DNA of 47,887 nt from the IMG/VR virus record IMGVR_UViG_3300024265_000083, positions 1 to 47,887 of that record; one strand, written 5' to 3'. The stretch comes from a virus. A program made the translations under genes and the position numbers. The notes under the pieces are model-generated. The model had not been told where the DNA came from, made no database searches, and saw only the letters and a list, made by a program, of their open reading frames with translations. This document shows, piece by piece, positions 9,283-10,605 of this stretch (the stretch's first letter is position 1; the number at the start of each line of letters is the position of its first letter).

Positions 9283-9308
9283 AGCTCTCTTAATTGGGGG
9301 CTTTTTCT
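9283..9308 (+). terminator. Intrinsic terminator
   Basis: AGCTCTC (9283-9289) pairs with GGGGGCT (9296-9302) across a six-base loop, followed by TTTTTCTTT. A smaller hairpin, CACTT-TC-AAGTG, lies just upstream. It ends the transcript of the lytic enzyme gene and separates it from the opposing HNH gene. Confidence 0.75.
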
Positions 9309-9347: not shown

Positions 9348-9965
9348 TTAACTATTTCTAATATTTGGAGTATTTAAAGCACGCTCTATATCCCATCCAC
9401 GATATAAACGCTTGTTTAATGTTTTGTATTCAACAGCACTTTTTTCTTTAAGATCATATAGTTTAGTATTTTTACCTTTATAGGAAACGATAATATTATT
9501 TCTTCTATTACTAGATTGTTCAGATTTTAATAACCATTTACAATTTTCTTTATTATATCCCTTATTAACATCTATTCTCTCAATGCTATATTCATCAGAT
9601 GGTTTTTTACCCATATCATTATAGAAGTTTATAAACTTATGCCAATTTTTACAAACCTCTATACCTCTACCACCATAATTATTATATGCATAGTAGTTTT
9701 TGTTATGGCATCTTGTCATCATATATTTCCACGTTTTATATTCTTTTGTTTTACTCATTCCATGAGTTTTGTGTGCTTTTGATATAATTTCACGTTGAAG
9801 GCAGCCACATGATTTTGAGGTTCCTTGTATTAAACTTTGTTTTCTAACAATCCTTTCATTGCTGCAGTCACATTTGCATAAAAAAAAATGATCTTCTTTA
9901 GCAGGGTATTTAACACCGTGCATTCTTTTGATAACTGTATACCTACCAAACTTTTTATTTTCCAT
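9348..9965 (-). CDS. HNH/AP2-type homing endonuclease-like protein
   Basis: A 205-residue protein encoded against all its neighbours. Cys pairs (CKCDC and SCGC, residues ~28-55) suggest a zinc-binding N-terminus. Residues ~85-155 contain RCHNKNYYAYNNYGGRGI, YSIERIDVNKGY and NCKWL, the pattern of phage HNH proteins that carry AP2-like DNA-binding modules. The base composition is visibly more AT-rich than the flanking genes, and its binding site (AAAGG) differs from the phage-wide AAGGAGCA. Both suggest recent acquisition as a free-standing mobile gene. Activity is unproven. Confidence 0.75.
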   Translation of the reverse strand: MENKKFGRYTVIKRMHGVKYPAKEDHFFLCKCDCSNERIVRKQSLIQGTSKSCGCLQREIISKAHKTHGMSKTKEYKTWKYMMTRCHNKNYYAYNNYGGRGIEVCKNWHKFINFYNDMGKKPSDEYSIERIDVNKGYNKENCKWLLKSEQSSNRRNNIIVSYKGKNTKLYDLKEKSAVEYKTLNKRLYRGWDIERALNTPNIRNS

Positions 9966-10046: not shown

Positions 10047-10073
10047 TTGACAATAAAACCAGCTTGATATAAC
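10047..10073 (+). promoter_or_regulatory. Promoter with extended -10 ahead of the ribozyme leader
   Basis: A consensus -35 TTGACA (10047-10052) and a TATAAC -10 (10068-10073) preceded by TG (extended -10), with a short 15-base spacer. Transcription would start near 10080, at an inverted repeat (TTGTCA 10081-10086, TGACAA 10102-10107), and then run through the hammerhead motif into the 10186 gene. Confidence 0.6.
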
Positions 10074-10100
10074 GTAGCTCTTGTCAGTGTGACGGCTTAA

Positions 10101-10170
10101 TTGACAAATATCGAAACCCTCTTCGGAGGGTATAGCGGAGATGACCTACCGCTACTGATGAGAGAGGTCG
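10101..10170 (+). ncRNA. Type II hammerhead ribozyme candidate
   Basis: All core positions of a hammerhead are present in circularly permuted type II order. C11.1-GAAA is at 10112-10116. Stem III follows: CCCTC-TTCG-GAGGG, 10117-10130, closed by A15.1-U16.1. H17 is A at 10132. Stem I is TAGCGG 10133-10138 paired with CCGCTA 10149-10154, and CTGATGA (10155-10161) and G10.1 come directly after. Stem II is open and weaker: G-C, A-U, an internal loop, then GTCG/TGAC. Cleavage is predicted between 10132 and 10133, in the leader of the 10186 gene. Stems I and III are perfect; only stem II is uncertain. Confidence 0.8.
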
Positions 10171-10185
10171 CAGCGAGGGAGGAAC

Positions 10186-10605
10186 ATGATAGCAGAAATA
10201 GGAAATGTATTATTAGTAACGGTAGCGTTTATAGCTTTCTTTGCTTTTATAATTATGGAAATAGTATGGACAGCTACCGCAACAAATTATAATGATGGTG
10301 GAGATGGAATCGGATATATCTTCTCATTTTTCATTTACTTAGGTTTCCTAGTAGCAATGAGTAATGAAAACTATCCTTGGTTGCCACCACCAGAAAGAAA
10401 TCCTATTATCGAATGGGAAATACTTATCGTATCGTCATTTCCATTTGTTGCTTTTGGTATAGCTATTGTCGGTGTCATGGGAACAGGCTTAATCTACCCA
10501 ATAGTTCAAACTATTAGAGAGCGAAAGGTTAATGCAGTCTTTTTATCATGGATAGTGATAATTCCTATTATTTTATTTAGCTATGGTAAATGGTTAGGAG
10601 TTTAA
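10186..10605 (+). CDS. Membrane protein of unknown function
   Basis: A 139-residue protein with four predicted membrane helices (residues ~6-28, 38-54, 76-102 and 116-134). The ATG follows GGGAGGAAC. It is the first gene after the hammerhead motif and extended -10 promoter, so its mRNA may carry a self-cleaved 5' end. No family was recognised; roles in superinfection exclusion or membrane control are possible but not supported by motifs. Confidence 0.75.
   Translation: MIAEIGNVLLVTVAFIAFFAFIIMEIVWTATATNYNDGGDGIGYIFSFFIYLGFLVAMSNENYPWLPPPERNPIIEWEILIVSSFPFVAFGIAIVGVMGTGLIYPIVQTIRERKVNAVFLSWIVIIPIILFSYGKWLGV

Follow-up and report, generated by a model that had tools for sequence, protein, structure and literature searches.

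The leader of an apparent early operon in an IMG/VR viral sequence of 47,887 nucleotides (the whole stretch of DNA that was analysed, hereafter the window) very probably carries a functional type II hammerhead ribozyme. An initial annotation had proposed such a ribozyme from the letters alone, and this is now the best-supported reading, based on an independent covariance model, on Rfam RF02276 as the top (sub-threshold) match and on covariation across 23 sequences. The element is a predicted new member of the type II hammerheads, with its leader position, minimal stem II and GUA cleavage site as small variations. Since phages carry many such ribozymes, usually between genes, the find is mostly an ordinary one. 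In the type II hammerheads described by Perreault et al. 2011 (PMC3088659), stem II is very short and loop I forms a pseudoknot with the bases that directly follow stem II on its 3' side. Cleavage of tandem phage-linked hammerheads has been seen both in E. coli and in vitro (PMC3088659).

The hammerhead core nucleotides are all present between positions 10110 and 10170 of the window, in the type II order, as read directly from the letters. The motif comprises the following features.

10111-10170, plus strand: entire type II hammerhead ribozyme, pseudoknot tail included (descriptor simulation, independent covariance model and covariation; Rfam RF02276 below gathering)
10111-10112, plus strand: stem II 5' strand UC, with GA 10162-10163 as partner (alignment register)
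10113-10116, plus strand: GAAA (G12 A13 A14 A15.1; invariant in 23/23 sequences)
10116-10131, plus strand: stem III hairpin of 6 bp with a UUCG loop (direct reading, covariation)
10132-10133, plus strand: predicted cleavage site, after A10132 (H17; position in the motif)
10133-10154, plus strand: stem I hairpin of 6 bp with the 10-nt loop AGATGACCTA, the flush 5' end of the predicted cleaved mRNA (direct reading, covariation)
10142-10147, plus strand: pseudoknot strand 1, UGACCU in loop I (compensatory changes in relatives)
10155-10161, plus strand: CUGAUGA (invariant in 23/23 sequences)
10162-10163, plus strand: stem II 3' strand GA (alignment, covariation)
10165-10170, plus strand: pseudoknot strand 2, AGGUCG (pairs with loop I in the register of the 22 relatives)

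The core and the coordinates claimed by the initial annotation were correct when the letters were read directly. These included C10112 followed by GAAA (10113-10116), U10131-A10132 before the cut at 10132/10133, a six-pair stem III (10116-10121/10126-10131) with its UUCG loop, a perfect six-pair stem I (UAGCGG 10133-10138 / CCGCUA 10149-10154) with a 10-nt loop, and CUGAUGA (10155-10161) followed by G10162. Stems I and III are closed by hairpin loops and stem II is open, which is the type II arrangement. The motif also has the loop I/3'-tail pseudoknot of at least 4 bp seen in the majority of type II hammerheads, with UGACCU and AGGUCG forming five Watson-Crick pairs and one U-G. Stem II has about 2 bp (UC/GA) and is the weakest in the aligned set, the third position being a non-standard A10110/G10164 where the relatives pair. 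At H17 the window has A, a minority choice among the relatives (C in 207/223, A in 9/223 and U in 7/223).

Stem II is where the earlier description had to be changed. It had been drawn as an extended helix split by an internal loop, with GAC (10103-10105) pairing to GUC (10167-10169), and the internal loop had been suggested to make a tertiary contact. We found that the actual contact is the standard pseudoknot between loop I and the 3' tail, which covaries and to which the GUC belongs. The GAC/GUC pairing is weaker (-3.5 vs. -6.9 kcal/mol for the pseudoknot), and its GAC falls inside the upstream inverted repeat (10081-10107). Since the GUC is used by the pseudoknot, the pairing is the weaker one and the GAC is part of the inverted repeat, the extended stem II is unsupported.

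We have investigated how often such a motif would arise by chance. An exact-core descriptor gave a single match in the window, which was this motif. The null consisted of 15,787 first-order Markov windows searched on both strands (about 1.5 Gb). One match with both stems of at least 6 bp was obtained, and none of the 15,787 simulated windows contained a match with both stems of at least 6 bp and a pseudoknot of at least 5 bp. The chance that both stems reach 6 bp in a window is at most about 1e-4, and the pseudoknot lowers it further.

Nothing was reported by Rfam at its gathering thresholds. When matches were instead reported by E-value, RF02276 (Hammerhead_II) at 10109-10172 was the only one in the window; it scored 26.3 bits vs. 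a gathering score of 37 (E=0.32 over the window, 0.0012 over 171 bases). The match lies below the curated cut-off, which is a database criterion and not a property of the RNA, and by itself it would be weak evidence. The Rfam type II model cannot score pseudoknots and represents another part of the type II family. We also built an independent covariance model on 22 viral type II hammerheads other than the window copy, and it placed the motif at 10110-10174 with 65.4 bits (E=5.7e-18). Its E-values are approximate, but the gap to the runner-up place (12 bits) is very large. The initial annotation had taken the lack of an above-threshold covariance score as grounds for refutation. Such a score was indeed lacking under the curated Rfam threshold, and the 65.4 bits from the model closer to the subfamily overturn that literal refutation.

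Relatives were sought in viral contigs with the type II core pattern, without any stem or pseudoknot requirement. At least 120 viral contigs contained the pattern, and 104 of the 120 listed hold a full type II hammerhead by the descriptor, with 185 type II copies among the matches listed. We have aligned the window with 22 relatives having the same stem lengths and register, chosen partly by the register of the tail. The 23 sequences aligned without gaps, all core columns were invariant, and standard pairs accounted for 95.9% of the cells, vs. 75% when shuffled and 33-40% when the partner was slid. The pairing in stems I to III was expected, since these stems were part of the selection. Two-sided changes were present in the pseudoknot at alignment columns 34-60 (6), 35-59 (13) and 36-58 (5); the pseudoknot was not a descriptor criterion, although selecting the relatives partly by their tail register favours it. 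The covariation result was unchanged when the window was left out.

A related pattern matched members of this subfamily in 13 bacterial contigs. Their sources are Bacillota, Actinomycetes, Flavobacteriaceae, a gill symbiont, Desulforapulum and candidate phyla. One type II match lies on a plasmid of Alicyclobacillus fastidiosus (L149, 2025-2075). In Marinithermofilum abyssi (L142, 7057-7901) there are at least five tandem type II hammerhead-like units about 120 nt apart, most with the tail GATAGGCTTATG; they are apparently not intergenic and form a repeat array of another kind.

The surroundings of the ribozyme in the window contain the following features.

7180, plus strand: peptidase-like late/lysis gene
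8571, plus strand: glucosaminidase-like late/lysis gene
9283-9302, plus strand: terminator-like site
9348-9965, minus strand: HNH endonuclease gene
10047-10073, plus strand: promoter-like site, TTGACA -35 (10047-10052) and extended -10 TGATATAAC (10065-10073) with a 15-nt spacer (read by eye)
10081-10107, plus strand: inverted repeat TTGTCA-N15-TGACAA, 8 pairs including the flanking G-U and U-A (repeat search; hairpin in the fold of the upstream product)
10174-10183, plus strand: ribosome binding site CGAGGGAGGA (read directly)
10186-10605, plus strand: first gene of the operon, ATG at 10186, a 139-aa protein with hydrophobic segments (sequence searches)

The predicted cut had been placed between an extended -10 promoter-like site and the ribosome binding site of the gene, and both could be read directly at these places. 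The promoter-like site was missed by a consensus scan because its spacer is 15 nt and the scan needs 16-18 nt. Between this site and the ribozyme lies the inverted repeat, which could act as an operator or fold into a hairpin at the start of the primary transcript; it is the sole such match in the window, and 5 of 100 shuffles contain one. The 139-aa protein gave no family match. Downstream of its gene there are small genes, a gene for a Rad52/Erf-like annealing protein (11803) and one for a DnaB-like helicase (15677), all on the plus strand. Based on this gene order, the ribozyme looks like the head of an early operon. No close relatives of the phage were found in viral contigs through the 139-aa protein, the Rad52-like protein or the DnaB-like helicase, and phage records gave distant matches only. 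The HNH gene matches those of staphylococcal phages at about 70% identity over some 270 bp, and it is possibly a recent insertion beside the ribozyme operon.

We have then surveyed the placement of 213 viral and bacterial copies with enough flank, among the matches listed. In 81% of these copies, the stop codon of a frame of 50 or more codons lies no more than 14 nt upstream (6% in antisense, 9% at random positions). An ATG frame with a Shine-Dalgarno-like motif starts 5-60 nt downstream, mostly at 20-32 nt, in 67% of them (1% in antisense, 8% at random positions). Both flanks are found in 59% of the copies listed, vs. 0.5% in antisense and 1.5% at random positions. Compared with these controls, the typical copy is thus in sense and fills the gap between two genes. 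The window copy is also in sense, and its 24-nt distance to the ATG falls within 20-32 nt. No upstream frame ends with a stop codon immediately before its stem II; upstream there are the promoter-like site and the divergent HNH endonuclease gene, and no co-directional gene.

Counted per whole record, there are up to 15 copies in 6 kb (G001), 13 (G010) and 10 (G002). Six records (L049 from G001, L004 from G010, L084 from G002, L031, L024 and L060) hold 8-15 type II hammerheads on one strand, several of them with about one hammerhead per gene, as ribozyme-punctuated operons. Other leader-type copies are found in L024 and L060, just behind a repeated promoter-like TTGTGCAAG...GATACTGT and 21-23 nt from its GATACTGT element. 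In a group of GC-rich phages (L014, L024, L060, L071 and L120), a repeated cassette, TTGTGCAAG...GATACTGT or gAGAGTGT, ends about 15-22 nt ahead of a type II hammerhead; from the position of the cassette, transcription would start almost at the ribozyme.

In the mechanism that we propose, the leader RNA of the operon, which leads from the small membrane protein to recombination and replication genes, would carry a ribozyme that cleaves its own transcript at A10132/U10133 while this is being made or shortly thereafter. The cut would release a leader of about 50 nt, with the stem III UUCG hairpin and a 2',3'-cyclic phosphate at its end. The mRNA would then begin with a 5'-hydroxyl directly on the paired stem I hairpin, which could remain an H-type pseudoknot with the tail, just upstream of the ribosome binding site. 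We infer both where transcription starts and how the stability of the mRNA is affected. Hairpin and 5'-OH ends are expected to slow decay (RNase E, RNase J, RppH, PNPase). The most likely benefit would be a defined, structured and phosphate-free 5' end that resists 5'-end-dependent decay and from which the upstream sequence has been removed; end protection itself we propose tentatively, as close to evenly balanced. The window copy has no second cistron to split, so that any selective value must lie in the new 5' end or in leader removal.

The position next to the ribosome binding site would also suit a regulated ribozyme, that is, a ligand-, protein- or salt-controlled switch tuning the membrane protein operon. 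The upstream inverted repeat might be the binding site of a factor or might base-pair with the motif, and regulation has been suggested for the halovirus copies (PMC3088659). We nevertheless consider such a switch unlikely, given that the relatives lack an extra conserved domain. The compactness of the motif and the varied size of the genes that follow the relatives fit general processing better than a specific switch.

Folding bears on whether the ribozyme is still active. The nested minimum-energy fold of the window keeps stems I and III and lacks stem II, which is no evidence against the hammerhead, since stem II is likewise absent in 20 of the 22 relatives. By estimated energies, the hammerhead with its pseudoknot (about -21.7 kcal/mol) and the nested fold (-22.7 kcal/mol) are about equal, and in most relatives the hammerhead is favoured by several kcal. 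These modelled energies suggest that the window ribozyme may be slower than average. They would also agree with a decayed or barely active hammerhead, a relic of an operon with an upstream gene that now serves as a passive leader hairpin: the third stem II pair has been lost relative to the relatives, the fold is only marginally favoured, 81% of the copies listed have the upstream co-directional gene that is missing here, and the divergent HNH endonuclease gene found in its place may be an insertion. All catalytic nucleotides are however intact and the pseudoknot is whole, which makes decay quite improbable.

A chance likeness of two hairpins and a CTGATGA would have in its favour that this heptamer is found 11 times in the window vs. 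5.6 expected and that the minimum-energy fold lacks stem II, but it is highly improbable in view of the simulation, of the independent model and of the relatives' folds, which mostly miss stem II too. Hammerheads elsewhere serve RNA circles (PMC7761336), as in retrozymes and viroids, but membership of a mobile or circular RNA element is just as remote here, as the copy is single and of type II, the window holds no second ribozyme (no type I or III hammerhead by descriptor) and the viral relatives are intergenic and in sense.

Beyond the window, type II hammerheads might constitute a phage-encoded, protein-free "cut-and-cap" system for both new mRNA ends, an idea that we regard as rather doubtful. 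Type II is the only hammerhead topology with closed hairpins on both sides of the cut. Because this permutation closes both stems, one cut would leave a 3' hairpin on the upstream mRNA and a flush 5'-OH hairpin or pseudoknot on the downstream one. The upstream hairpin would often carry a UUCG or GNRA loop; intergenic arrays would yield individually stabilised single-gene mRNAs, and a leader copy as here would replace the 5' triphosphate by a protected 5'-OH. Among the relatives, 118 of 163 stem III tetraloops are of the UNCG or GNRA type, which suits a stabilising end, yet such loops are also frequent in selected hairpins of any sort.

Were both caps essential, type II would be expected to predominate in viruses. 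No such predominance was found among the viral loci listed with patterns of similar degeneracy: type I hammerheads were present in 102 of 120 loci and type II in 104 of 120, type I (L152-L271) thus being about as frequent as type II in the viral contigs listed. Type I copies listed are also in sense, and 51% are near gene starts, but they fit less closely between genes: both gene flanks are found for 32% of them vs. 60% of the type II copies listed. Loci with at least four copies were 11 of 104 for type II and 0 of 102 for type I (p=0.0007; loci listed). The cut-and-cap idea is thus only partly supported, with type I about as frequent and loci of four or more copies confined to type II.

What type II hammerheads do in phages was left open by the 2011 survey that found them (PMC3088659). 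Given the strong rule that most lie exactly between a stop codon and a ribosome binding site, and up to 15 copies per record, a role in mRNA processing can be put to a direct test. Two possible benefits are separated by the leader position of the window copy, which has no second cistron to split.

The early mRNA of phage T7 is a polycistronic RNA that is cut by the host RNase III beside hairpins, giving mRNAs with structured ends. The likeness lies in this cutting of a polycistronic phage message beside hairpins; in T7 it depends on a protein of the host, whereas the window RNA would cut itself. RF02276 (Perreault et al. 2011, PMC3088659) shares with the window copy the core, the circular permutation, the short stem II, the loop I/tail pseudoknot and the phage setting. 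The window copy differs from it in scoring below the gathering threshold, in a stem II of 2 bp with A/G at the third position, in predicted cleavage after A (GUA, where most relatives have GUC) and in lying in a promoter leader, not between cistrons. The HHphage hammerhead of haloviruses HF1 and HF2 is located 13 nt upstream of a helicase gene (PMC3088659) and is similar in preceding a phage gene start by a few nucleotides in an early region. It is described as a structural variant (PMC3088659), whereas the window copy has the form of a standard pseudoknotted type II hammerhead.
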